From: Luteibaculum oceani
GTDB taxonomy: Bacteria > Bacteroidota > Bacteroidia > Flavobacteriales_D > Luteibaculaceae
Assembly: GCF_007995015.1 (NCBI RefSeq)
Contig: NZ_VORB01000008.1
Coordinates: forward strand, 1-64,000
Direction of reading: 5' to 3'
Length of the DNA stretch: 64,000 nucleotides
Numbering within the stretch: position 1 is the first letter of the stretch; each line of letters starts with the position of its first letter. The position numbers were made by a program, and so were the translations under genes. Under the pieces are notes generated by a model. That model searched no databases and was not told the DNA's origin. It saw only the letters and a program-made list of their open reading frames with translations. Below, piece by piece: positions 121 to 50,013 of the stretch.

Positions 121-307
121 GGCAACGACCCGGCTATGAATAGTGCGGCTTTAGAGCTATAATGTTTGGCTCTCGCGACACGGTTAGCCGAGGCTTTTAT
201 TTGTGTGGTAAATTACTAAAACCAAGAAGAATAAAAGACGAGGCGGAGGCAAAAGCTAAAATGTGTTCTTAACCGACTAACCCGCATTATTCATAGCCAT
301 TGTTGGC
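121..307. repeat. attC-like palindromic element A (187 bp)
   Basis: The element begins GGCAAC and ends GTTGGC. Its outer arms pair: GGCTATGAATAGTGC near the left end against GCATTATTCATAGCC near the right end. An inner pair is GCTTTTATT against AATAAAAGAC. The exact centre is GGTAAATTACTAAAACC at 207-223, itself a near-palindrome. The whole element could fold as one long hairpin from a single strand. It shares layout, length and centre with the elements at 1044 and 1944. The flanks differ on the two sides and form no target-site duplication. The expected exchange point by analogy with integrons is G302|T303. Confidence 0.8.
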
Positions 308-317
308 AAGCGTAATT

Positions 318-611
318 TTAAATCTCGATGTTTATAGAGACTTTACCACCTAGGCCTTTTTCAACGATATCGTAGAGCGTTTTTAATGTGATGTTGCTGC
401 CATCATTCTCAACTCGGGAGATGTATGTCCTTTTTTTATCAATGATTTCAGCAAGCTGTTTTTGTGTGAGGTGCTTTTCTTCTCTAGCCTGTCTTAATAA
501 ATAACCGATTCGAAATGTTTGAGCACTTCTTTCCAGGTCATCTCTTCTGGGAGTTCCCTTTTTCCCATAAACCTCATCTTTAATTTGGTCCCATGATTTA
601 GTCTTTCCCAT
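318..611 (-). CDS. XRE-family antitoxin (HigA-like), cassette 1
   Basis: This is a 97-residue DNA-binding protein, predicted to neutralise the toxin encoded just upstream and to repress the pair. A helix-turn-helix of the XRE/Cro type occupies roughly residues 35-90, with the motif LTQKQLAEIIDKKRTYISRVEN. The N-terminal 30 residues are charged and probably form the toxin-binding arm. The toxin is read first and overlaps this gene by 14 bp, which is the HigB-HigA gene order. Both lie between palindromic elements A and B. Its relative at 1243-1527 has the same layout (MGK start, YGKKGT/YGKEGS stretch), so the two cassettes carry related antitoxins. The partner match is inferred from order and family, not shown. 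Confidence 0.85.
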   Translation of the reverse strand: MGKTKSWDQIKDEVYGKKGTPRRDDLERSAQTFRIGYLLRQAREEKHLTQKQLAEIIDKKRTYISRVENDGSNITLKTLYDIVEKGLGGKVSINIEI

Positions 612-951
612 CTTTTTTCTCTTTTAAATACTGCAACATTAATTTCTTGGCTTTTTCGATTTCCTTCTTGGGTGTTTTCTGTGATTTCTTTTGAAATCCG
701 TTAAGAAGGATGACAAGCTTGTTTCCATCAAAAAAGCAGAACACTCTCCAGATGTTGGATCCAAGTTTAATGCGTCCCTCAAAAAGGCCTTTTACTCCAG
801 TTATGCTTTTAAGATGGTTAGAAGGAATACGTTCAATGGTTTCTAACATCTCAATTAACTTAAAGACTTTGTTTTGGGTCTTTTGGTCCAAAGAGTTTAG
901 GAACTTTTCGAAGTGTCCTTCGTATGATGTAACCGATCTTATTTTGTCCAA
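598..951 (-). CDS. RelE/HigB-type toxin, cassette 1
   Basis: This predicted mRNA-interferase toxin of the RelE/ParE superfamily has about 117 residues. The motif GSNIWRVFCFFDGNKLVILLNGFQKKSQKTP is split here for clarity: GSNIWRVFCFFD, then LLNGFQKKSQKTP, then a lysine-rich C-terminal helix. These are typical of phage-derived Gp49-like/HigB toxins of Bacteroidota. The open frame extends to an ATG-type start at 1035, but I prefer the TTG at 951. A good promoter and palindromic operator lie at 973-1004, inside the longer frame, so the extra 28 residues would precede transcription. It overlaps the antitoxin gene at its 3' end. Toxicity and target are inferred from the family. Confidence 0.8.
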   Translation of the reverse strand: MDKIRSVTSYEGHFEKFLNSLDQKTQNKVFKLIEMLETIERIPSNHLKSITGVKGLFEGRIKLGSNIWRVFCFFDGNKLVILLNGFQKKSQKTPKKEIEKAKKLMLQYLKEKKDGKD

Positions 952-972
952 ACTGGTTCGATTATTTAACGA

Positions 973-1004
973 CAAAGGTAACTTAAAAGTTACTTGAAAC
1001 GCAA
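973..1004 (-). promoter_or_regulatory. promoter with palindromic operator of toxin-antitoxin pair 1
   Basis: On the minus strand TACCTTTG (980-973) matches the Bacteroidota -7 consensus TAnnTTTG exactly. A TTG at 1004-1002 sits 21 bp upstream. The perfect palindrome GTAACTT-AA-AAGTTAC at 978-993 overlaps the -7 element and is the likely antitoxin operator. The operator outline GTAAC-N6-GTTAC recurs in the same place in cassette 2. Confidence 0.7.
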
Positions 1005-1043
1005 GAAAATCTTTGGGGATTAGGGCAGAGCGCAATTATGCTT

Positions 1044-1229
1044 GCCAACGGCTCGCCTATGAATAGTGCACTCCGTAGCTCTAAAATTTAGATGCTGGCG
1101 ATACACTTAGCCGAGACTTTTGTTTGAGTGGTAAATTAGTAAAACCGCGTAAAAGAAAAGGGGAGGCGGAAGTGCGGGCGAAACCATTTAAGAACCGATT
1201 AAGCCGCATTATTTATAGGCATTGTTGGC
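1044..1229. repeat. attC-like palindromic element B (186 bp)
   Basis: The element begins GCCAAC and ends GTTGGC. Outer arms are GCCTATGAATAGTGC and GCATTATTTATAGGC. The centre GGTAAATTAGTAAAACC at 1130-1146 matches the centre of element A in 16 of 17 bases. The left flank GCTT complements the right flank of element A. The right flank ACTA complements the left flank of element C. Pairing of flanks therefore runs across the gene packets, not across the element. The expected exchange point is G1224|T1225. Confidence 0.82.
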
Positions 1230-1242
1230 ACTAGTACTTTAT

Positions 1243-1527
1243 TTATTCTGGATTAATCTGAATAGAGAGTCCAAGAGCTTTAGCTAACAAAGCAAAATTT
1301 GATAGTCTAATGTCTTCACCATTTTCTATTCGAGAAATGTAAGGTCGTTTTTTACCCACTTTTTCAGCGAGATCTTCTTGACTCAAATGGAGTTCCTTTC
1401 GTCTGTTACGAATGATTTCTCCGAAGTAATATGAAAAGGCGTCTTCAGTGAATTTCTCTCGTGATTCTGAACCTTCTTTTCCGTACCTCTTATCCAAAAG
1501 TTCCTTGGCGTTGAATGCTTTACCCAT
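1243..1527 (-). CDS. XRE-family antitoxin, cassette 2
   Basis: This 94-residue helix-turn-helix protein is predicted to be the antitoxin and autorepressor of cassette 2. The XRE domain spans about residues 36-90, with LSQEDLAEKVGKKRPYISRI as its core. The N-terminus (MGKAFNAKELLDKRYGKEG) parallels that of the antitoxin in cassette 1. It overlaps the upstream toxin frame by 8 bp. The two proteins appear homologous but clearly diverged, so cassettes 1 and 2 are not a recent duplication. Confidence 0.85.
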   Translation of the reverse strand: MGKAFNAKELLDKRYGKEGSESREKFTEDAFSYYFGEIIRNRRKELHLSQEDLAEKVGKKRPYISRIENGEDIRLSNFALLAKALGLSIQINPE

Positions 1528-1867
1528 TTTCTTTACGATTTAAATATTCCTCTAAAATTTTTTCTGCAGCTTTAATTGCCTTTTTATAATCCTTGGTGGA
1601 CTTTTTTATAAACCCAGTTAAACAGACCACCTGGTTAGCTTGAGAGAAGTTTAAATGATCAATTGCAAATATGATAATACGGTATTCATTTCCAGCTTTT
1701 ACTCGGAGTTCATAGAATTTGGTGGATTGCAACTTCTTAATGAACAAAGCGTGCACCACTTTCTCTTGCATCATCACTTGCACAAGCTGAAAAAATTTTA
1801 ATGAAACCCTTTCACCTTGTTTGTCGATAAACTCTAAGCATTCTTCCGTAATATCAACATCTCTCAC
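1520..1867 (-). CDS. RelE/HigB-type toxin, cassette 2
   Basis: This 115-residue predicted toxin belongs to the phage-derived Gp49-like/HigB group. Key stretches are FYELRVKAGNEYRIIIFAID, then VVCLTGFIKKSTKDYKKAI near the C-terminus. The start is GTG at 1867, and no alternative upstream start exists before the promoter. TACATTTG ends at 1872, only four bases before the GTG, so the message is probably leaderless or nearly so. Toxin-first order and overlap with the antitoxin are as in cassette 1. Confidence 0.8.
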   Translation of the reverse strand: MRDVDITEECLEFIDKQGERVSLKFFQLVQVMMQEKVVHALFIKKLQSTKFYELRVKAGNEYRIIIFAIDHLNFSQANQVVCLTGFIKKSTKDYKKAIKAAEKILEEYLNRKENG

Positions 1868-1871
1868 GGTA

Positions 1872-1892
1872 CAAATGTAACGAATTAGTTAC
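1872..1892 (-). promoter_or_regulatory. promoter and operator of toxin-antitoxin pair 2
   Basis: Minus-strand TACATTTG (1879-1872) matches TAnnTTTG exactly. The inverted repeat GTAAC-GAATTA-GTTAC at 1877-1892 overlaps it. Its arms and spacing are the same as in the operator of cassette 1. No clear -33 TTG is seen at the usual distance. Confidence 0.6.
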
Positions 1893-1943
1893 GAAAAAGG
1901 TTTAAGAATCTAGCAAAAAATAGTAGGGAGAACGAGTATTAGT

Positions 1944-2135
1944 GCCAACGGCTTGGCTATAATTTAGTGCGGGTGGATCGGGCTTTGTCCGATCATGCCG
2001 CACGGAAGCTAGCAAGCCTTTTATTTAGGTAGGTAAATTAAATAAAACCGAGAGAAATAAAAGGAGAAGCGGAGGCGAGGGCGAAAATGTGTTCTGTCAA
2101 CGGTTAACTCCGCATTAATTATAGCCTTTGTTGTG
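1944..2135. repeat. attC-like palindromic element C (192 bp)
   Basis: The element begins GCCAAC and ends GTTGTG. Outer arms are GGCTATAATTTAGTGC and GCATTAATTATAGCC. The centre GGTAAATTAAATAAAACC at 2032-2049 sits in the middle of the element. Its inner portion is more diverged than in A and B and includes an extra local hairpin, ATCGGGCTTTGTCCGAT. The expected exchange point is G2130|T2131. The sequence after it, TTGTGTGC, is repeated inverted at 2916-2924 beyond the genes. Confidence 0.8.
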
Positions 2136-2147
2136 TGCTGGCCGTCT

Positions 2148-2582
2148 TTAAATTAATTGTCTTTCAACGTGTTTTTCTAATTCCTTTTGCTTGAAATCAA
2201 ACCAGTCTTGCCTAAAGTCCGAATGATCAACTAGATGTTTAAAGTGACGGAAAGGTTTTCTTTTTGATAAAGCTTCTATTAATCGATTCTTAAATAACCC
2301 TTCATTTAGTTGATAAGCGAAGTTTTCCATGATTTCAAAGGATTCCCAGGATTCAAGTGGGGTAATGCACTGAAATTCGGGATCTTCTACTTTCTCTATT
2401 TCCTCACCTAAAAATTCTTTAAACTCTTCTTCCTCATAGTGATCGTTGAAATTAGGGATGCAAATTAATTCCTCGGATTTAGGATTGTAATAGGCCTTAT
2501 TTCCGCAGTCAATTTGCTGAGCAATTTCATTTAATATTTCTGGTTTAATCTTAGCCAAAGAAACAACCGAGTTTATCTTCAT
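2148..2582 (-). CDS. UPF0158 family protein, cassette 3
   Basis: This 144-residue acidic protein matches my recollection of UPF0158, a small family of unknown function common in accessory DNA. Recognisable parts are the N-terminal region of about 45 residues with YYNPKSEELICIP, an acidic middle, and the C-terminal RPFRHFKHLVDHSDFRQDW followed by FDFKQKELEKHV. I start it at the ATG at 2582. A TTG four codons upstream at 2594 is possible. It overlaps the end of the DUF3024 gene by 32 bp, so the two are probably translated together. No catalytic residues can be pointed to. Confidence 0.7.
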   Translation of the reverse strand: MKINSVVSLAKIKPEILNEIAQQIDCGNKAYYNPKSEELICIPNFNDHYEEEEFKEFLGEEIEKVEDPEFQCITPLESWESFEIMENFAYQLNEGLFKNRLIEALSKRKPFRHFKHLVDHSDFRQDWFDFKQKELEKHVERQLI

Positions 2583-2895
2583 TAATAATTTCAAGTAGAG
2601 CGCTTAAGTTGTTTGCTTTTGGAAATGGGGAATAGGCCTCCCATTTACCGTTTGCTCTCATCCAGTAGAGATTCCATTCATTTCTGGTTTGGTAATAGCG
2701 CAATCTGGCGAATGGGTAGTTTCTTGTTTTTGATGGGTTAATCCAAATGGGCCTAGTTGTGAATATCTCAAAAGCTTTTCTGTCAAAGGAATATCCGAAA
2801 TCAATCTTTTTTCTCAATTCAGGATCCTGAGGACGTTTGGAGTCAACAAAATCTTGAATTTTTTCTTCATTAATTTCTATAATGTTTCGTTCCAC
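2551..2895 (-). CDS. DUF3024-like protein, cassette 3
   Basis: This 114-residue protein has the look of DUF3024, a small family of unknown function also found in integron cassettes of other bacteria. Visible marks are FEIFTTRPIWINPS, ARLRYYQTRNEWNLYWMRA, and NGKWEAYSPFPKANNL followed by a short helix ending CFFG. The start is GTG at 2895, because an in-frame stop lies four codons upstream. It is the gene nearest the recombinase and reads in the same direction. No promoter was recognised in the 20 bp between it and the core site at 2916-2924. Confidence 0.65.
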   Translation of the reverse strand: MERNIIEINEEKIQDFVDSKRPQDPELRKKIDFGYSFDRKAFEIFTTRPIWINPSKTRNYPFARLRYYQTRNEWNLYWMRANGKWEAYSPFPKANNLSALLEIINEDKLGCFFG

Positions 2896-2915
2896 GGATA
2901 ATGTTCAATTAGCTT

Positions 2916-2951
2916 GCACACAACATATGAGCAACACCAGGTTGCTGATAT
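2916..2951. other. last cassette core plus 27-bp inverted repeat
   Basis: GCACACAAC (2916-2924) complements GTTGTGTGC at 2130-2138 and closes cassette 3. Immediately next to it, ATATGAGCAAC (2925-2935) and GTTGCTGATAT (2941-2951) form arms that match in 10 of 11 positions around a 5-base spacer. The AAC...GTT geometry resembles a simple two-box recombinase site. No full 190-bp palindrome is present here. Confidence 0.5.
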
Positions 2952-3023
2952 TGGTTTTTGTTTTTGTATACCGAAAAGTAAAGAAAACCCCCGGAAAACC
3001 ACGATTAGGGCAATTTAAAATGA

Positions 3024-3070
3024 GAAAATGTGATGATATTTTTTGCAAAAGAAAATGTGATGATATTTTT
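3024..3070. repeat. two direct copies of a 20-mer
   Basis: GAAAATGTGATGATATTTTT occurs at 3024-3043 and at 3051-3070, a 27-bp period. The last 12 bases, GATGATATTTTT, occur a third time at 3272-3283 inside the 3' end of the recombinase gene. These could be accessory recombinase-binding sites. A short chance tandem duplication is the alternative. Confidence 0.6.
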
Positions 3071-3219: not shown

Positions 3220-4353
3220 CTATTCCAATGATTTCTTCCGAAAATTTTCAGTCTTTATGCTATCAAAGGGAGATGATATTTTTAGTAAGGACGATTTGGA
3301 AACATGGGTATAAATGGCAGTTGTGTCTAATTTCTCGTGTCCCAAAAGTTTTTGAATCAATCTCGTATCGGTTCCGCCCTCCATCATGTGGGTTGCAAAG
3401 CTATGTCGCAGTACATGGGGTGTTACCCCTTTTAACCCAGCCAGTTTAGCGGCTCTTTTTACTAACATCCCTACGCTAGACGCCCCATATTGATTTCGAT
3501 TGGGCCCCTCAAAAAGCCAGTAATTAGGGCTATATGCTGCCAGATATTTTGTTAACCCAACAGCCATACGTTCACTTAATATAGATACCCGATCTTTCTT
3601 GCCCTTCCCCCCTTTTATAAATACCTGCATACGGTCAAAGTTTATATCCTCTACCCTTAACCCAATGAGCTCTCCCCTTCTTAATCCTGCTGAATACAGT
3701 AAGGCAATAATACACTGGTGCTTTAAATTGCTGGCAGCCAAAACTAGCCGTATAAGTTCTTTCTGACTGATTACTTTGGGAAGCTTTCGCTCTTTTCTGG
3801 GTCTATCCAAACTATACTTCTTTTTCTCTCGTCCCAAAACATGTTCATAATAAAATTTAATAGCGTTAATAACCTGGTTTTGGGTACTTATGCTAACATT
3901 CTTTTTCTCAATCAGAAAATTTATGTAATCCTTGATTTGATCGTCTGTTATAGATTGTAAGTCAAATTTTCTGTAGAAATGCATAAAACCACGAAACATC
4001 GAGCAGTAGGTTCTTACGGTATTGGCACTATATCGTCTGCGCACCAGTAACTCCCTAAACTCCAAGGGTAAATCCACATCATTAGTATTGTTTATTGCCG
4101 CCCTTTTACCCACGAGGATTGCGGTATTATCTACCGCAACCGTTCCATTAAACGCTCTAATAATCTCCAAATATGATTTTCTAGTGAACGGCAGGTAAAA
4201 ACACTTTTTACCTGAGTGCCAGTTCGCGTTAATCCGCCTTAGCCCACTGTATATGGTTTCGCTGTATTTAAACTGAAATCCTAGATAGCAATTACCATCC
4301 AAATGGATTTTATGTAACCGAAGAACCGGCTTACTTGAATCTTGCTTTTTCAC
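3220..4353 (-). CDS. tyrosine recombinase (integron-integrase-like, no IntI insertion)
   Basis: This 377-residue site-specific recombinase has a full catalytic set: R225 (SAGLRRGEL), K250 (GGKGKKDR), H313 and R316 (TPHVLRHSFATH), H339 (LLGHE) and nucleophile Y348 (AIYTH). The core-binding domain is about residues 95-175, with SANTVRTYCSMFRGFMHFY and VSISTQNQVINAIKFYYEHV resembling the same region of IntI. The tail KISSPFD also recalls IntI. The extra domain that defines IntI between R225 and H313 is absent, and the linker is just YSPNYWLFEGPNRNQYGASS. An added N-terminal domain (about 15-80) contains FKYSETIYSGLRRI, W45 and YLPFT, a pattern reminiscent of HARP domains. The start is GTG. It reads toward the array, not away from it. 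Confidence 0.9.
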   Translation of the reverse strand: MKKQDSSKPVLRLHKIHLDGNCYLGFQFKYSETIYSGLRRINANWHSGKKCFYLPFTRKSYLEIIRAFNGTVAVDNTAILVGKRAAINNTNDVDLPLEFRELLVRRRYSANTVRTYCSMFRGFMHFYRKFDLQSITDDQIKDYINFLIEKKNVSISTQNQVINAIKFYYEHVLGREKKKYSLDRPRKERKLPKVISQKELIRLVLAASNLKHQCIIALLYSAGLRRGELIGLRVEDINFDRMQVFIKGGKGKKDRVSILSERMAVGLTKYLAAYSPNYWLFEGPNRNQYGASSVGMLVKRAAKLAGLKGVTPHVLRHSFATHMMEGGTDTRLIQKLLGHEKLDTTAIYTHVSKSSLLKISSPFDSIKTENFRKKSLE

Positions 4354-12463: not shown

Positions 12464-12959
12464 CGGCTTTATCCTTTCTATTGCAGTTTTTTGTAGCTGC
12501 AGCATACTTCTAACCCATAAAACCTTAGCTCAAAACCCTATAAAACCTGCTGGAATGGGGATAGCTGAGGTTGAGGAGGTTGTTTATTTTAGTTCGCTAC
12601 GCAATTTAATTCCAGGTAAAACCTGGAAGTACATTGTTCAGGAACACGATATCGCCCCTTACTCTAAGCTGATATTTAACTACGCCGAATTTCCAGATTT
12701 CCCCATAGAACGAGTGGAAGTACTGCGAAAGGCCGAACAACATGTTTATACCTTGGTTAAGGTAAACGGAAGGTTTGAGTGCGAATGGCTGCTAGAGGAT
12801 GCCTTTCGAGTTTTTGGAGATCTTAAAAACCCAAAACAGGAAAGTAAAACCCTTGTTGAATTCGAATGGAATGTAGACGACCATTTTGCCGATCAAACCG
12901 TTACCTATAAACTAATGGGTAAAAAACAGTGTGAGGTTAAAATGATGGTAAATTTTTAA
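12426..12959 (+). CDS. small exported protein of unknown function
   Basis: I do not recognise this 177-residue protein. Residues 1-36 form a basic N-terminus and hydrophobic stretch (SGFILSIAVFCSCSILL) ending at LAQ, so it is exported. Cysteines in the hydrophobic stretch make a lipoprotein possible, but no clean lipobox placement is seen. The mature part is beta-rich and contains FECEWLLEDAFRVFGD. It overlaps the DUF349 gene by 38 bp. Its 3' end overlaps the convergent helicase gene by four bases. Confidence 0.6.
   Translation: MKLKHKTRKPLTSGFILSIAVFCSCSILLTHKTLAQNPIKPAGMGIAEVEEVVYFSSLRNLIPGKTWKYIVQEHDIAPYSKLIFNYAEFPDFPIERVEVLRKAEQHVYTLVKVNGRFECEWLLEDAFRVFGDLKNPKQESKTLVEFEWNVDDHFADQTVTYKLMGKKQCEVKMMVNF
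12450..12469 (+). terminator. terminator-like hairpin spanning the DUF349 stop codon
   Basis: AAGCCGCT, an AACT tetraloop and AGCGGCTT form an 8-bp stem, with TAG as the stop codon at 12461-12463. The following TTTATCCTTTCT is only weakly T-rich. The hairpin also falls in the signal-peptide coding part of the next gene, so it may attenuate rather than end transcription. Confidence 0.5.
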
Positions 12960-15467: not shown

Positions 15468-16448
15468 ATGAAGTTTTTGATACGACTATTAAGCGTAACA
15501 GTTATAATCGCTCTCGGATGGTCTGGAGTGTACCTTTTCACCTATTCCAATAGCAAAGAGGGAGATGAAGTAATTCATCAAAACAATTTTAAGCAGGACT
15601 ATAAAATCTACTCACTGGCTACCCCAAAAAAGCTGGATTTTTGTGGAGAAACTGTTCCCCTAAAACTTATTGATGTTAAAGAGAAACTAGATAGAGAACT
15701 TTTGGTAAACACCTACTGGCAAAGCCAAACCATGCTTTTCTTGAAAAGATCGCATCGCTACTTCCCCATTATTGAGCAGGTTTTAAAATCTAACGGTGTA
15801 CCAGAAGACTTTAAATATCTCGCCTTGATTGAAAGTGGATTGGAGCATGTTGTTTCTCCAGCTGGAGCCACAGGTTTTTGGCAAATCATGAAAGCAACCG
15901 GAAAAGATTACGGTTTAGAAATCAATGATGATGTAGACGAGCGCTACAACCTTGTAAAATCGACAGAATTTGCTTGTAAATACCTAAAAGATGCCTACGC
16001 TAAATTCGGATCTTGGACCATGGCAGCTGCTTCATACAACATGGGTATTAATGGATTAGAGCGCAGCCTTGAAAAACAAAAGGTAAACAACTACTACGAT
16101 TTGCTGTTAAACACAGAAACCGGAAGATACCTCTTTAGAATTCTTGCGGTAAAACAAATTATGGAACACCCTAACGATTATGGATTTAACTTTTTAGATC
16201 AACATCTATACCCTCAGCTGGCTACCAAAGACACGGTAATTACCCAGCCCATTAGCGACTTAGCTGTATTTGCTGCAGAAAAGAGGATAAACTATAAAAT
16301 CCTGAAAAGCTTAAACCCTTGGCTTAGAAGCAATAACCTTCCGGTTAGTGCCGGAAAATCGTATACCCTAAAACTTCCTACTGAAAAGGACAACACATTA
16401 AAACCTTTTAAACTAGGAGAATTTGAAGCCAACGACTCGTTAAACTAA
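15468..16448 (+). CDS. membrane-anchored lytic transglycosylase (MltD/SLT type)
   Basis: This 326-residue peptidoglycan-cleaving enzyme has an N-terminal hydrophobic segment (RLLSVTVIIALGWSGVYLF) that anchors or exports it. The SLT domain spans about residues 95-240. The catalytic Glu is in ALIESGLEHVVSP, followed by AGATGFWQIM and ASYNMGI. The C-terminal 70 residues may be a degenerate LysM-like segment (NYKILKSLNPWLRSNNLPVS). It starts 6 bp after rfbC. Confidence 0.9.
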   Translation: MKFLIRLLSVTVIIALGWSGVYLFTYSNSKEGDEVIHQNNFKQDYKIYSLATPKKLDFCGETVPLKLIDVKEKLDRELLVNTYWQSQTMLFLKRSHRYFPIIEQVLKSNGVPEDFKYLALIESGLEHVVSPAGATGFWQIMKATGKDYGLEINDDVDERYNLVKSTEFACKYLKDAYAKFGSWTMAAASYNMGINGLERSLEKQKVNNYYDLLLNTETGRYLFRILAVKQIMEHPNDYGFNFLDQHLYPQLATKDTVITQPISDLAVFAAEKRINYKILKSLNPWLRSNNLPVSAGKSYTLKLPTEKDNTLKPFKLGEFEANDSLN

Positions 16449-16464
16449 GATCCAAATTAGCCAG

Positions 16465-19296
16465 GTGGAAGAAATATTTAGCGCTGAATCTGAAATTGAT
16501 ATAGTTGGAGCTAAAGAGCACAACCTAAAAAACATAAGCCTAAAGTTACCCCGAAACAAATTGGTGGTGATAACGGGATTAAGCGGCTCTGGTAAATCTT
16601 CCTTAGCCTTCGACACCCTCTATGCCGAGGGCCAAAGGCGCTACATAGAAACCTTCTCTTCTTATGCCCGCCAATTTATTGGAAACCTCGAGCGACCTCA
16701 GGTTGACCAAATAACGGGTTTGAGTCCGGTAATCTCCATTGAACAAAAAACGGTAAGTAAAAACCCCAGGTCTACGGTTGGAACCATTACCGAGCTTTAC
16801 GATTTTCTAAGATTGCTTTTTGCTCGAACCTCAACCGCCATTTCACACAAAACTGGGGAGAAAATGGTGCGCTACAGCGAGCAGCAAATTTTAGCTTTAA
16901 TCTTAGATCAGCTCAAAGGAAAAAAAGTAGATTTTTTGGCTCCCGTGGTTCAAGGACGAAAAGGGCATTACCGCGAATTACTTGAGTCCTACAGAAAAAA
17001 AGGATTTGTTAAGGCCAGAATAGATGGGGAACTCCACGATTTAAACGAAACCAAATCGCTAGACCGATTTAAGATTCACGATGTAGACATCGTAATCGAT
17101 AGGCTTAAGGTGGATGAAAAATTTGAAAAGCGAATTAAAGATGCGGTTAGCGAATGCTTTAAGCAAGGTAAAGGCATCCTAAAAATTTGGAATCACGATA
17201 CCGATTCTGGACATTTTTATTCGAAAAAGCTCATGTGTCCTACCACGGGTATCGCATACCCAGACCCAGAACCCAATACTTTTTCATTTAACTCACCTTA
17301 CGGATACTGTTCATCTTGTAAGGGGTTGGGAATTGCAGAGGTTGCGGACCAAGGTAAAATGCTTAATCCAGATTTAAGTATAAGTAAGGGCGGATTACTT
17401 CCGCTGGGAAACAGCAAAAGCTCCTGGGTATTTAAACAAGTAAAAGCTATAGTAGAAGGAAAGGGTGAAGAACTGAGCACGCCTATTAAAGACCTTCCTA
17501 AAACCCTTTTAAACACCCTATTTCAGGGCACCGACGAAAAGGTAGAAATTTCCAGTAATAGTGGTGTTAAGTCGTATAAAACGGAATTCGAGGGGATAGA
17601 GAACTTCGTGGTTCGACAATATCAAGAAACGGATAATCCAGCAATTAAAAGGTGGGCCCGAGGGTTCTTAAAACCCATTAAATGCCCTAGCTGCGAAGGA
17701 AAAAAATTAAAAAAGGTATCTCTTCATTTTAAGATTGACGACAAGGATATATCCGAAGTCGTGCAAATGGATTTAAACCATCTGGATGAATGGCTTAAAA
17801 GCTTACCAAAAAAGCTTGATGATAAAACCCTGACCATAGGTGGTGAGATTTTAGCTGAAATCCAAAAGCGTTTGGGATTCCTACTAGACGTTGGCTTGGG
17901 ATACCTTACCCTGGATAGAAGCTCCAAATCTTTAAGTGGTGGCGAAGCCCAGCGCATTCGACTTGCCACCCAAATAGGCACCCAACTTGTTGGTGTCTTA
18001 TACATTCTAGACGAACCCAGTATTGGGTTACACCAGCGAGATAATAAGAAATTAATCGAAAGTCTAAAGCAGCTCCGCGACTTGGGAAATACCGTTTTGG
18101 TGGTAGAGCACGATAAAGAAACCATGGAAGCTGCAGATCATATAGTAGATATTGGTCCTAAAGCTGGGGTACATGGAGGAAAAGTAGTGGCACAGGGAAC
18201 TTTTGAAGAAATTATTAAAGCCAACACCCTTACATCCAGCTACTTAAACGGAAACCTAAAAATTGATACCCCTAAAATTCTACGTGAGGGAAATGGGAAA
18301 AAATTAGAGCTTTTTGGAGCTTCGGGACATAATCTAAAGGATGTAAATCTGAGCATACCATTGGGTAAACTGGTGGTGGTTAGCGGCGTTTCTGGAAGTG
18401 GTAAATCGAGCTTAATAAACCAAACACTATACCCTGCACTGCACAACCACTTTTTTAAAACCAACCACGATGTACTTCCCCATAAAAAGATCAAGGGCAT
18501 TAAAAACATCGACAAGGTTATAGATATCGATCAATCGCCTATTGGAAGAACACCGAGATCTAACCCGGCTACCTATACCAAAGTCTTTGACGAGATAAGA
18601 AAACTGTTTGCCGAAATTCCCGAGGCCAAAATAAGGGGCTACAAAGCGGGGCGATTTAGTTTTAACACCAAAGGAGGTAGATGCGAAACCTGTGAAGGTG
18701 GAGGAATCCGAAAAATTGAAATGAACTTCCTTCCCGATGTGTTCGTAAACTGCGAAACCTGTCAGGGTAAACGTTATGACCGGGAAACTTTAGAAATAAG
18801 ATATAAGGGGCATAGCATCTCCGACATACTGGATATGACCATTAACCGGGCTTGCGAGTTTTTTGAACATCAACCTAGAATTGCAAGAAAAATTCAAACA
18901 CTGGTAGATGTAGGGCTGGGCTACTTAACTCTGGGCCAACAGAGTACTACCCTTTCTGGAGGAGAAGCCCAACGGATAAAACTGGCAAGTGAACTGAGTA
19001 AAAAAAGCACCGGAAATACCCTCTATATTTTAGATGAACCCACTACCGGGTTGCACTTTGAGGATATTAGATTACTGATTTCGGTAATAAATAGATTGGT
19101 AGACCAAGGAAATTCCGTTATTGTAATAGAACATAATTTGGATATCATTAAGGTCGCCGATCATATTATTGATATGGGTCCTGAGGGCGGATTTGCTGGA
19201 GGAACAATAGTTGCAGAAGGAACTCCCAAGGAAATTTTAAAATCTAAAAAATCAGTTACGGCACCTTTTTTGAAGGAAGAATATAAAAACCACTAA
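16465..19296 (+). CDS. uvrA: excinuclease ABC subunit A
   Basis: UvrA is the damage-recognition ATPase of nucleotide excision repair; this one has 943 residues, a normal length. Both ABC modules are complete: Walker A GLSGSGKSS and GVSGSGKSS, two LSGGEAQRI signatures, and zinc-binding cysteine pairs CSSCKGLG, CPSCEGKK and CETCEGGG/CETCQGKR. The start is GTG at 16465, 16 bp after the transglycosylase. The stop codon directly abuts the next ATG. Confidence 0.97.
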   Translation: MEEIFSAESEIDIVGAKEHNLKNISLKLPRNKLVVITGLSGSGKSSLAFDTLYAEGQRRYIETFSSYARQFIGNLERPQVDQITGLSPVISIEQKTVSKNPRSTVGTITELYDFLRLLFARTSTAISHKTGEKMVRYSEQQILALILDQLKGKKVDFLAPVVQGRKGHYRELLESYRKKGFVKARIDGELHDLNETKSLDRFKIHDVDIVIDRLKVDEKFEKRIKDAVSECFKQGKGILKIWNHDTDSGHFYSKKLMCPTTGIAYPDPEPNTFSFNSPYGYCSSCKGLGIAEVADQGKMLNPDLSISKGGLLPLGNSKSSWVFKQVKAIVEGKGEELSTPIKDLPKTLLNTLFQGTDEKVEISSNSGVKSYKTEFEGIENFVVRQYQETDNPAIKRWARGFLKPIKCPSCEGKKLKKVSLHFKIDDKDISEVVQMDLNHLDEWLKSLPKKLDDKTLTIGGEILAEIQKRLGFLLDVGLGYLTLDRSSKSLSGGEAQRIRLATQIGTQLVGVLYILDEPSIGLHQRDNKKLIESLKQLRDLGNTVLVVEHDKETMEAADHIVDIGPKAGVHGGKVVAQGTFEEIIKANTLTSSYLNGNLKIDTPKILREGNGKKLELFGASGHNLKDVNLSIPLGKLVVVSGVSGSGKSSLINQTLYPALHNHFFKTNHDVLPHKKIKGIKNIDKVIDIDQSPIGRTPRSNPATYTKVFDEIRKLFAEIPEAKIRGYKAGRFSFNTKGGRCETCEGGGIRKIEMNFLPDVFVNCETCQGKRYDRETLEIRYKGHSISDILDMTINRACEFFEHQPRIARKIQTLVDVGLGYLTLGQQSTTLSGGEAQRIKLASELSKKSTGNTLYILDEPTTGLHFEDIRLLISVINRLVDQGNSVIVIEHNLDIIKVADHIIDMGPEGGFAGGTIVAEGTPKEILKSKKSVTAPFLKEEYKNH

Positions 19297-20019
19297 ATGG
19301 CAGAAGAAAAATCAGATAAAAGGGATAGAATTATAGAGGCTTTTGAAAAGAAATCGTGGAATGATATTAAAACCAACGATAGTTGGGCGATTTTTAAAAT
19401 CATGGCCGAGTTTGTAGATGGCTTTGAGAAAATGGCCAAAATTTCTCCATCTGTCTCCATTTTTGGTTCTGCCAGAACACAGCCCGACAACCCTTACTAC
19501 AAGTTAGCTGAGGATATCGCTTACCGATTAACTCAAAAAGGATATGGGGTAATTACTGGTGGTGGTCCAGGTATCATGGAAGCTGGAAACAAGGGTGCTA
19601 ACAAGGGAAAAGGCACAAGTGTAGGCTTGAATATTGAACTTCCGTTCGAGCAAGAACACAACCCTTTTATTGATAGCGATAAGAATTTAAATTTCGACTA
19701 TTTCTTTGTTCGCAAAGTAATGTTCGTAAAATACAGCCAGGGGTTTATCGTACTCCCAGGTGGATTTGGTACGCTAGATGAACTCTTTGAGGCTATGACA
19801 CTCATCCAAACTCATAAAATAGGGAAGTTCCCAATTATTTTAGTGGGTAAAGATTACTGGAAAGGGCTAATCGATTGGATTAAAGACACCATGTTAGCTA
19901 AAGAAAGTAATATTAGCCGTGAGGATTTAGACTTGTTCCAGTTGGTTGATACGGCAGAGGAAGCCGTGCAACGCATCGACGATTTCTACAATTCATATCT
20001 ACATACTCCCAACTTCTAA
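19297..20019 (+). CDS. LOG-family protein (TIGR00730 Rossmann fold)
   Basis: This 240-residue cytoplasmic enzyme of the lysine-decarboxylase-like/LOG family likely cleaves nucleoside monophosphates to ribose-5-phosphate and base. Signature motifs are GGGPGIMEAGNKGA and PGGFGTLDELFEA. It is immediately joined to uvrA and overlaps the next gene by one base. Confidence 0.9.
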   Translation: MAEEKSDKRDRIIEAFEKKSWNDIKTNDSWAIFKIMAEFVDGFEKMAKISPSVSIFGSARTQPDNPYYKLAEDIAYRLTQKGYGVITGGGPGIMEAGNKGANKGKGTSVGLNIELPFEQEHNPFIDSDKNLNFDYFFVRKVMFVKYSQGFIVLPGGFGTLDELFEAMTLIQTHKIGKFPIILVGKDYWKGLIDWIKDTMLAKESNISREDLDLFQLVDTAEEAVQRIDDFYNSYLHTPNF

Positions 20020-20948
20020 TGAGGCTGGCACTTTCCATATTGTTGTTTTTAAGCATATCTGTGTCTTATGCACAGTATGAAAAGCTTCTAATTCAGGGCG
20101 ACAAAAGCTTTGAAAAAATGGAACTTAACGGTGCCCTCTTGAAATATTTAAAGGCCTACGAAGATACTGCCACTCAATTGGTAGTTAAAAAACTAGCAAG
20201 TACCTACTACCTTCTTGGAGAATGGGAAAAAGCCGAGGAGTGGTATTTTAGGGTGTTTACCTATACCACCCAAACACCACAAGACTATCTAGATTACATT
20301 ACTTGTTTGGCGTACCTAAAAAAGGAAGCAAAAGCATTGGAATTTCTGGGTTATTTGAAGGAATACTTTCCAGATTATAAAATTCCAGATGCTTTTGAAT
20401 TTTGGTTAAATCAAAGATTTTACGCCCCCTGCATCCCCGATAAAACCAAGGATGCTAAAATAAGCTACTGTGTGGATATAGATATCTCGCGTAGTGTGGA
20501 TACCCTCAACAAAAAGGTGAAATTTTATTGGGAATTCGACGATGGCACCAAACAGGCGGGATTGCGATTTAAAAAGTGTTTTAAAACACCCGGAAATCAC
20601 AAGATTAAATTAACCTCGGTAGACAGCTCCCTCGGGCATGCAAGAACTTCGGACACTACTTTAACCGTTTCTTTTATAGAGGAGGCCAACTTTAGAGTAA
20701 ATGGAAACCACACGGTGGGTGATCTGGTGAATTTTTATGCCTTTAACCTAAAAGAACACCCCGATTATTACGCCATGGCATGGGAAATAAGCGATGGTAC
20801 CCTGCACTTTAAAGAAGCCTTTGTTCATCGGTTTTACCGTCCCGCTACCTTTAAAATTACCCTCCATATTTTTGGAAAAAACAGTAATGAAGAAATTTAT
20901 CAAATCGCTTGTTTAACACAGAATTGGTCCATAAAACGAGGAAGCTAG
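20019..20948 (+). CDS. exported TPR and PKD-like protein
   Basis: This 309-residue protein has a signal peptide (LSILLFLSISVSYAQ). Residues of about 20-130 form TPR-like helices (LLGEWEKAEEWYFRVF). After that, two beta-sandwich segments resemble PKD folds (FYWEFDDGTKQAG with PGNHKIKLTS, then MAWEISDGTLHF with PATFKITLHIFG). I do not know a named relative. Translational coupling with the following two genes suggests work in the same envelope process, perhaps feeding the sensor kinase. Confidence 0.65.
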   Translation: MRLALSILLFLSISVSYAQYEKLLIQGDKSFEKMELNGALLKYLKAYEDTATQLVVKKLASTYYLLGEWEKAEEWYFRVFTYTTQTPQDYLDYITCLAYLKKEAKALEFLGYLKEYFPDYKIPDAFEFWLNQRFYAPCIPDKTKDAKISYCVDIDISRSVDTLNKKVKFYWEFDDGTKQAGLRFKKCFKTPGNHKIKLTSVDSSLGHARTSDTTLTVSFIEEANFRVNGNHTVGDLVNFYAFNLKEHPDYYAMAWEISDGTLHFKEAFVHRFYRPATFKITLHIFGKNSNEEIYQIACLTQNWSIKRGS

Positions 20949-48326: not shown

Positions 48327-49335
48327 TATCTGTATGTAATTCTATTTTCTGGATTCTGACTTTAATGGTCCAGATCCAAATACCTATTAATATCCAACCT
48401 AAAGCAGCTGGATAGAAAATCATTTTTAAGTTATTGTCAAGATCGTACTGACTAAACGCCGGATTACCACCATTTCCTGGGTGCAAGGAGTCGGTTAATC
48501 GTGGCAATACCTGAATAAATACGATCATTAACACATAGGCAAATATGTTGTATACCGCAGATATACGTGCCTTTTTTTCGTCGTCTGGAATGGATTGACG
48601 TAAAACCAAATAAGCGAGATACACTAAGAAAGAGAGGGCAGCACCATTTAATTTCGGATCTTTTACCCACCAGGCACCCCAGGTATATTTAGCCCAAATA
48701 CTTCCCGAAATAATTCCAAGAAGAGCAAAATACAATCCAACTTTTGCCGCTTGCGATGCTTTTATATCGATTAACTGGTTGTCGCCATTTAAGTATTTAA
48801 CGGAGTATACCAGCGAAATGGTCATTAGAATTAGCAGAACAAACCACATAGTAACGTGGAAGTTTAAATTTCTAATGGTTTCGTAAAGAATATTCTTAAA
48901 AGGAATTTCAAATTTATCGCGCCCCATAACGTATGCACTGCGATCAAAAGTGGTGTGAAGCACTGAATCTGTGCTTTGCTCTACAAAATGGGCTTGAGGT
49001 AAAAAAAGTGTTTTATCGATGTTATTATAAACCCATAAGGAGTAATTTCCGTTCTGGGGGAAATCCTTCGTTTGAAATTCGAATGAACCAATGGTAGCAC
49101 TGTAAATTTCCTCAGCAACAGGGCGCACTGCCTGCTTGTCTTCGCTTTGAAGCCAAAGCACCACGGTATCGGCATCGAAATGCGTGTTATACCCACTAAC
49201 GGTTAAGGTGAAAGTTGAATCTGATTTGGTGGTTGGATTTACCGACTGCAAACCCGGTGCCATTGGTAGAAAAAAACTACTGATACAGGCGTAGGTTACT
49301 AACAGAATGGCAAGCAATTTCCAGCTGTTTCTCAT
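48313..49335 (-). CDS. ccmC: heme exporter/handling protein CcmC
   Basis: This 340-residue membrane protein loads heme onto CcmE. The WWD motif is YTWGAWWVKDPKLNGAAL, flanked by hydrophobic helices. It is longer than the roughly 240 residues of proteobacterial CcmC because of an extra periplasmic domain of about 100 residues after the first helix. It overlaps ccmD by 14 bp. Confidence 0.9.
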   Translation of the reverse strand: MRNSWKLLAILLVTYACISSFFLPMAPGLQSVNPTTKSDSTFTLTVSGYNTHFDADTVVLWLQSEDKQAVRPVAEEIYSATIGSFEFQTKDFPQNGNYSLWVYNNIDKTLFLPQAHFVEQSTDSVLHTTFDRSAYVMGRDKFEIPFKNILYETIRNLNFHVTMWFVLLILMTISLVYSVKYLNGDNQLIDIKASQAAKVGLYFALLGIISGSIWAKYTWGAWWVKDPKLNGAALSFLVYLAYLVLRQSIPDDEKKARISAVYNIFAYVLMIVFIQVLPRLTDSLHPGNGGNPAFSQYDLDNNLKMIFYPAALGWILIGIWIWTIKVRIQKIELHTDNEEL

Positions 49336-49344
49336 TCCCGCTTT

Positions 49345-50013
49345 TTAATCGCGCCAAAGGTAGGGAAATAAGAGGGATGCCAAGACCAGAATTATAAGAT
49401 CTAAAGCTAATAAAGACAAAAAATACTTTTGGAATACAGCTATAGGCTGTCCGGCCAATATGTGTGTAGAAATTCGAATCAATAAAATCACTAGCGGCAT
49501 AGAAAGCGGAAGACCGAGAATACTGGCCATCCCGATGGAGTTACCAGATTTAAAAGCAATACCATTAATAAGAGCCAATAGCGCTCCTAATCCAAGACCA
49601 GCCAGTAAGATTAAAAGACCAAACCAGGCTACAGATGCCAGGGTGGTTTCACTGGGAAGCCCCATAAAAACGACAAAGCATGCGAATCCTATTCCCGCAA
49701 CTACTATACTTAACAGCGATGCAAATACTGCTTTTGCCCAATAAATAACCTGCGGTGCTACCAATTGAGAAAGGAACAAATCTTTCCCACCTTGTTCCTT
49801 ATCAAAAACTCTAAGTGTAGCGTTAAAGGCCCCGAAAAGAACAATTACCCAAAATAATGCATTCCAGGTGCTTATACTAAGCACCTTGGTAAAACACAAA
49901 TAGGTTACGTAAACAGAACTTAATACATAGAGCAATATTACCAAGGTTGCGTTTTGCTCACTTAACTCCTGCTGTATCTCTTTTCTTAATAGCCGATAAA
50001 TATCTCTAAGCAC
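49345..50013 (-). CDS. ccmB: heme exporter membrane subunit CcmB
   Basis: This 222-residue protein with six hydrophobic helices is the ABC-type permease subunit of CcmABC. RKEIQQELSEQNATL at the N-terminus and FDKEQGGKDLFLSQL are typical. It is the first gene of the ccm run. The ATPase gene ccmA is not in the window. Confidence 0.9.
   Translation of the reverse strand: MLRDIYRLLRKEIQQELSEQNATLVILLYVLSSVYVTYLCFTKVLSISTWNALFWVIVLFGAFNATLRVFDKEQGGKDLFLSQLVAPQVIYWAKAVFASLLSIVVAGIGFACFVVFMGLPSETTLASVAWFGLLILLAGLGLGALLALINGIAFKSGNSIGMASILGLPLSMPLVILLIRISTHILAGQPIAVFQKYFLSLLALDLIILVLASLLFPYLWRD

Follow-up and report, generated by a model that had tools for sequence, protein, structure and literature searches.

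The closest described systems to the locus analysed here are the integrons and the recombinase-associated acquired interbacterial defence (rAID) arrays. An additional domain near patch III is taken as defining for integrons and their integrase, IntI (PMC9668308, citing Messier and Roy 2001). A survey based on the IntI domain and canonical attC sites found integrons to be nearly absent from the Bacteroidetes proper, where IntegronFinder 2.0 detected a complete integron only in Salinibacter, with others in Chlorobi and Ignavibacteriae (PMC9024848); these systems belong broadly to the same phylum as the present locus but possess a true IntI. In the rAID loci of gut Bacteroidales, a tyrosine recombinase is accompanied by short genes in a common orientation, with conserved motifs between them (Ross et al. 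2019; PMC12247911), and the mechanism of their biogenesis is an area of active research (PMC12247911). Here, we describe an array of small gene packets and long hairpin sites behind a tyrosine recombinase gene in Luteibaculum oceani, whose genome comprises 2.92 Mb in 42 contigs. The window, that is, the whole stretch analysed, starts at the edge of contig C8 and covers 64 kb.

We interpret the locus, with a probability of about 0.88, as a mobile cassette array that has its own attachment site and recombinase and operates on the integron principle with an enzyme other than IntI. On the minus strand, the locus runs from a recombinase gene (3220-4353) through a gap of approximately 300 nucleotides (nt) and a putative attachment site attI (approximately 2924-2960) to cassettes 1, 2 and 3 and the start of a fourth. 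The 3' end of the recombinase gene points at the array and six co-oriented open reading frames (ORFs) follow it. Cassettes 1 to 3 are complete, each closing with a hairpin site 180-186 nt long; the array itself is incomplete, because position 1 of the window is a contig edge. An earlier reading of the window (the original prediction) had described the palindromes and packets, which stand, and had reported neither the recombinase nor attI. Sequence comparison supports the anatomy, the predicted exchange point and the directionality very well, and it reveals a strand bias, a recurrence with homologous recombinases and a divergence of cassettes exactly from the motif G|TT.

The three claimed palindromes are located at 124-304 (attC-3), 1047-1226 (attC-2) and 1947-2132 (attC-1), measuring 181, 180 and 186 nt from AAC to GTT, all on the minus strand. 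The claim that each packet, rather than each palindrome, has complementary ends is borne out most clearly by cassette 3 (126-1048, 923 bp, starting TTGGCAAGCATA), in which 302-317 pairs with 1034-1049 (16 nt, 94%; 14/15 past the G), and by cassette 2 (1049-1948, 900 bp, starting TTGGCACTAATA and ending AGCCG), in which 1224-1238 pairs with 1935-1949 (15 nt, 93%; 13/15 past the G). The third claimed pair, at the ends of cassette 1 (1949-2923, 975 bp, the first past attI, starting TTGTGTGCAAGC and ending with the G of attC-1), is present in a weaker form, eight bases past the G being followed by a 2-nt mismatch and GC. When all GTT..AAC pairs at a spacing of 150-1500 nt within the window's first 3.3 kb are ranked, the top two are the ends of cassettes 3 and 2, and the third reaches 11/15; complementarity of 14/16 is attained by 1 in 400,000 random pairs of places in the window. 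The lone mismatch that had been counted in these pairings proves not to be noise but a C.A position that recurs across loci. A genome-wide search for the central motif, which the original prediction had proposed, returns it four times in 2.92 Mb, three times here and once on contig C7.

The same organization recurs in other genomes. Named genomes, searched with an alignment built from eleven recombinases, yielded 80 loci. A plain inverted-repeat search missed most sites; we used instead a spacer-aware detector (AAC, 2-4 nt, stem, 4-6 nt, GTT). Downstream of homologous recombinases it finds 95 sites in the forward and 11 in the reverse direction; upstream the counts are 19 and 24, respectively, and shuffled sequence gives 17. 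For a statistic on packets, sites were selected on stem, spacer and two length classes with the flanks ignored, giving 75 sites in 24 loci that share the design AAC, 2-4 nt, L arm, then L arm, 4-6 nt, GTT. Successive packets are complementary at 6/6 positions after GTT in 33 of 46 cases, versus 2 of 75 for the palindromes' own ends and 4 of 304 for other pairs, so the predicted pairing of packet ends, not palindrome ends, extends beyond this genome. Shuffled pairing of the 46 packets gives a mean of 1.1 and a maximum of 7 in 10,000 trials, and the packet failures listed mostly involve false or missed sites. A curated set selected on end linkage was kept out of this statistic, in which it would have been circular, and served only for ORF direction: the longest ORF faces the site of its packet in 40 of 43 cases, mostly filling the packet, just as the genes of the window had been seen to share one direction, here the minus strand. 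Array loci include those of Algibacter onchidii (L095), Winogradskyella ursingii (L074), Seonamhaeicola aphaedonensis (L075), a Sphingobacteriales metagenome-assembled genome (L099) and a closed genome of the same order as the window (L045). Within the class, one attC type is present in 8 of 295 genomes, spread over several families; where homologous attC of different families exceed 90% identity, the homology stops at or near the site boundaries. In a number of genomes (G029, G033, G040, G052, G056, G060, G073, G093 and G095) the 3' end of the recombinase gene lies a few hundred bases from a contig edge, as if the assemblies had broken at repeated sites just past attI.

If the first cassette obeys the same rule as the others, attI must hold the complement of the arm of the first attC. 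The predicted fixed attI beside the recombinase is indeed found: in most array loci a match to the first attC arm (GTT plus 6) occurs 59-350 nt past the recombinase stop codon. The match is usually preceded by AT-rich sequence with a final G (such as GATATAACGAG|TT and CGTATATATAAG|TT). In the window the putative attI reads ATATCAGCAACC-TGGT-GTTGCTCATATG|TT on the minus strand, with exchange predicted after the G at plus-strand position 2924, and has equivalents in relatives and a paralogous copy on C7. Three congeneric species (G039, G013 and G095) have a common recombinase and attI (97.5% and 92% identity); their alignment runs as far as ...GCACTACG|TT and two or three bases more, and from there the cassettes differ. 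The comparison of cassette content that had been suggested as a check thus places the divergence, at the species level, from G|TT on. Within the genome of the window, the C7 and C8 copies are similar up to ATATG|TTG and then different. On C7, near 48928-49700 (L001/L063), a single cassette lies between a worn hairpin and the attI copy; the window holds the genome's sole close copy of the recombinase, C7 has none, and the lone cassette is apparently the orphan remnant of an array.

The hairpin arms are not symmetrical with respect to strand. Among the first 14 L-arm pairs, gene-strand A.C, which reads as G.T on the opposite strand, outnumbers gene-strand G.T by 114 to 19, an asymmetry that runs counter to the bias of the detector, since the latter penalised A.C and rewarded G.T. 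When the sites are clustered at 70% identity, 26 of 30 informative clusters favour gene-strand A.C and 4 the reverse (p=6e-5), while the better fold belongs to the opposite strand in 28 clusters and to the gene strand in 4. The mismatch that recurs at packet ends also belongs to this C.A type. For the sites of the window, the opposite strand folds at -37.2 (attC-3), -29.1 (attC-2) and -31.1 kcal/mol (attC-1), and the gene strand at -28.0, -21.6 and -26.7 kcal/mol, respectively; another fold of attC-2 gives -30.7 kcal/mol for the opposite (plus) strand and -23.3 kcal/mol for the gene strand. Joining the cassette ends as they would meet in a circle restores a longer arm and gives deeper folds than those in the array, with opposite-strand minimum free energies of -48.2 (cassette 3), -35.2 (cassette 2) and -40.3 kcal/mol (cassette 1), compared with -38.2, -30.9 and -31.9 kcal/mol, respectively, in the array. 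Single-strand folding, another check that had been suggested, therefore finds the hairpins biased to the strand opposite the genes. This is the pattern expected, as in integrons, if that strand were the substrate, and it does not amount to proof.

The recombinase (377 residues, GTG start, minus strand) was characterized from the ORF list, profile matches, an alignment and an AlphaFold model with a mean predicted local distance difference test score of 86.1. It consists of an extra N-terminal region of approximately 95 residues, a SAM-like core-binding domain and a catalytic domain with R-K-H-R-H-Y, in which R225, K250, H313, R316 and H339 are invariant across the recombinase alignment (A2) and Y348 is nearly so. 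The XerA profile NF040815 gives 224 bits (cut-off 220) and the IntI profile TIGR02249 gives 210 bits, below its cut-off of 265. From the GKG to the HxLRH motif there are 64-66 residues where measurable, compared with 107 in true IntI of the same phylum and 73 in Xer, and in an alignment with IntI4 (PDB 2a3v) the region of the IntI insert holds 14 residues versus 58. In a phylogenetic tree, built by a quick method and with many weak forks, the true IntI sequences from that phylum group together (support 100 in the Shimodaira-Hasegawa-like approximate likelihood ratio test) in a clade that includes one unlabelled Pseudoalteromonas sequence; the array recombinases fall outside it, not as one clade but in among Bacteroidota homologues. 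The best structural relatives are XerA-type (PDB 5hxy and 4a8e), with IntI4 also among the best, and it is with such simple tyrosine recombinases that the core-binding and catalytic domains are shared. These enzymes act on double-stranded dif-like sites, and XerA-type enzymes are not known to have a HARP-like N-terminal domain or to serve a cassette array.

The N-terminal domain is modelled with high confidence as a beta-beta-alpha-beta-beta-alpha fold. The Pfam family HARP (PF07443) matches 4 of 30 homologous N-terminal domains (best E=9.3e-7), an earlier Pfam run on ten such domains gave no HARP match, and the HARP domain of SMARCAL1 (4o66) gives a weak profile match (E=1); we refer to the domain as HARP-like. 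HARP domains bind structured DNA and, by analogy, we hypothesize that this domain may read the hairpin. The genome of the window contains separate Xer homologues. IntI is present in 37 of the 99 phylum genomes sampled, and in 1 of about two dozen of that sample marked as the same order or class. A search among phages returned relatives of the core domains only. Homologues also reside on plasmids. In Chryseobacterium sp. SNU WT5 (plasmid NZ_CP041688.1, 9202-13754) a recombinase annotated as 'site-specific tyrosine recombinase/integron integrase' has hairpin sites downstream, with one 77-nt hairpin occurring three times and differing bases past GTT. Related mobilizable plasmids of Flagellimonas and Arenibacter, one of which carries erm(F), encode a short relative that has no N-terminal domain; after it come a resolvase-like gene of the recombinase family and an AAA ATPase gene.

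In the mechanism that we propose, a cassette would consist of a single gene, a pair of genes or a toxin-antitoxin pair and, behind it, an attC-like hairpin site, and the strand opposite the genes would form a long hairpin. This hairpin would be cut at G|TT by the XerA-like recombinase, probably with the aid of its N-terminal HARP-like domain. Joining of the cut hairpin to a second hairpin would excise the cassette as a circle, and joining to the attI beside the recombinase gene would insert it as the first cassette. The exchange point would lie inside one hairpin arm, with the result that an integrated cassette holds half an arm at each end; it is because the exchange point splits an arm in this way that the ends of packets would be complementary and those of palindromes would not. 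We infer that the recombinase performs the reaction, that it does so on single-stranded DNA and through circles, and that the N-terminal domain takes part.

The likeness to chromosomal integrons is extensive. The locus has a recombinase gene with an adjacent attI to which the first cassette is joined, and cassettes of one or a few genes that terminate in an imperfect palindrome with R and L arms and unpaired spacers, as attC does. The predicted exchange is at G|TT, the start of the cassette is complementary to the beginning of attC, the strand opposite the genes folds better, and toxin-antitoxin pairs are among the cargo. A strict integron, with a diverged IntI and canonical attI and attC, would account for this architecture and exchange point, for the 210 bits against TIGR02249 and for the place of 2a3v among the best structures, but we regard it as highly improbable. 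That score is below the cut-off, the insert is missing, IntI form a separate clade and searching the window's genome with TIGR02249 returns no IntI. The original prediction had noted that the cores depart from RYYYAAC/GTTRRRY and, among the 75 sites, RYYYAAC is matched by 5, GTTRRRY by 5 and both by 1, AAC and GTT having belonged to the search rule; AAC and GTT are retained, the longer cores are not. Further departures from integrons are the extra N-terminal domain, an attI downstream of a recombinase gene that reads toward it, arms complementary at 13-14/15 past the G rather than over a 7-base core, and the recurrent gene-strand A.C positions. Given integron-like working together with the failure of two features that define IntI integrons, the additional domain and the core, we class the locus as a non-IntI variant of the integron principle. 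The earlier idea of circles exchanged at G|TT of folded hairpins is supported by the predictions that came true, with the qualification that the locus resembles an integron and is not one in the strict, IntI-based meaning. The other described neighbour, rAID, is exemplified by a locus on a Parabacteroides distasonis plasmid (NZ_OY725747.1, 8001-15100), in which a recombinase 37.9% identical to that of the window, and homologous over the N-terminal domain too, precedes SUKH and Tdi1 immunity genes with hairpins of about 42 nt; its cassette ends are complementary at 8-10/10 positions with exchange at CCA|TT, for sites placed by hand, three having been misplaced by the script. The homologous recombinase, co-oriented short genes, conserved intergenic hairpins and cassette-end complementarity could place the window in a gut-type rAID immunity locus. 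This is unlikely given its cargo of HTH (helix-turn-helix)/Gp49 toxin-antitoxin pairs, DUF3024 and one unknown, in which Pfam and NCBIfam reveal no orphan type VI secretion system immunity genes, and given sites of 180 nt with G|TT rather than 42 nt with CCA|TT. From their sequences, the two systems look like branches of one mechanism. In the literature we found the system undescribed outside rAID; whether Ross et al. (2019) liken rAID to integrons was left unchecked.

Two further explanations do without an active array. Palindromes that recur in many genomes, with homology mostly confined to the palindrome, call to mind miniature inverted-repeat transposable elements, repetitive extragenic palindromic sequences or structured RNAs, between which the genes would be incidental. 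Such elements have complementary ends of their own and unrelated flanks, and they cannot render flanks some 700 nt apart complementary; here the flanks pair packet by packet (33/46 versus 2/75), co-directional genes fill the packets, the sites follow the recombinase in one direction and no Rfam family matches them at or above its gathering score. We consider this the least probable of the alternatives. An array that has decayed, its recombinase serving another role such as dimer resolution, is improbable too, though less so than the others; it would be in keeping with three complete cassettes only and with the worn hairpin on C7. The recombinase is nonetheless intact with its catalytic residues retained, the genome has separate Xer homologues, and two cassettes preserve arms and end complementarity at 13-14/15. 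In a relative, moreover, the closed genome mentioned above (G002, L045, 8794-10367), a 787-bp cassette is present as a tandem pair that is 100% identical and bounded at G|TT, which is a recent duplication or re-insertion.

Several observations weigh against the interpretation as a mobile array. Recombination, circles and strand specificity rest on inference from sequence rather than on observation. Cassette 1 is perfectly complementary for only 8 bases past the G, with two more after a gap. The comparison of congeners covers one genome per species, and so operates at the level of species rather than strains. At four loci with recombinases on long contigs (L044, L050, L058 and L059) the detector found no convincing array. 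The N-terminal domain of the window recombinase has no match to PF07443, and a fold search with it did not return HARP. Finally, DNA relatives of the toxin-antitoxin pair of cassette 2, at about 70% identity, occur in three other genomes with no hairpin sites found nearby by the detector; such genes therefore travel or persist outside cassettes as well.

The cargo that had been named, toxin-antitoxin pairs and DUF3024, is confirmed by Pfam, with all genes on the minus strand. Cassette 1 encodes a DUF3024 protein (2551-2895, 114 residues; PF11225, E=2.5e-32) and a protein of 148 residues (2148-2594, TTG start as listed) with no match in Pfam or NCBIfam. In cassette 2, a RelE/Gp49-type toxin-like gene (1520-1867; PF05973, E=5.1e-9) adjoins an HTH antitoxin-like gene (1243-1527; PF01381, E=9.1e-17), and cassette 3 holds a second such pair (598-1035, Gp49/RelE-type, PF05973, E=3.7e-22; 318-611, PF01381, E=2e-13). 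The fourth cassette is represented by its start (1-125), with the junction ...AGCCGGGTCG|TTGCCTGCCATAAT at 126/125. Cargo in relatives includes superoxide dismutase, a cation efflux protein, NERD and HNH nuclease domains, a cupin, cytochrome b561 and many unknowns. Four packets of Algibacter onchidii (12566-12954, 15497-15934, 19244-19917 and 20040-20730) contain no ATG-started ORF of 60 residues and may represent cassettes that are decayed or non-coding. Two copies of a 21-nt direct repeat, AGAAAATGTGATGATATTTTT, sit at 3023-3043 and 3050-3070, in the region that separates attI from the recombinase gene, and a 76% copy is at 3263-3283; these repeats are possibly regulatory or accessory binding sites. 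A stretch related to this repeat is also present on C7.

We favour, somewhat beyond even odds, a wider proposal: that a second class of integron, lacking IntI and built on XerA-like recombinases that have a HARP-like, structure-reading domain in place of the IntI insert and capture hairpin-ended cassettes at attI, exists across the Bacteroidota, with the rAID arrays of the gut as one branch. If so, the Bacteroidota would have a widespread system of cassette capture that is invisible to surveys based on IntI and canonical attC, and hairpin-based cassette exchange would be possible without the IntI insert. Homologous recombinases occur on plasmids as well, in one case with hairpin sites downstream. 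The predictions for exchange point, strand and attI are precise enough to allow a direct test, and the mechanism, if true, would offer a concrete account of how gut bacteria build their rAID immunity arrays.

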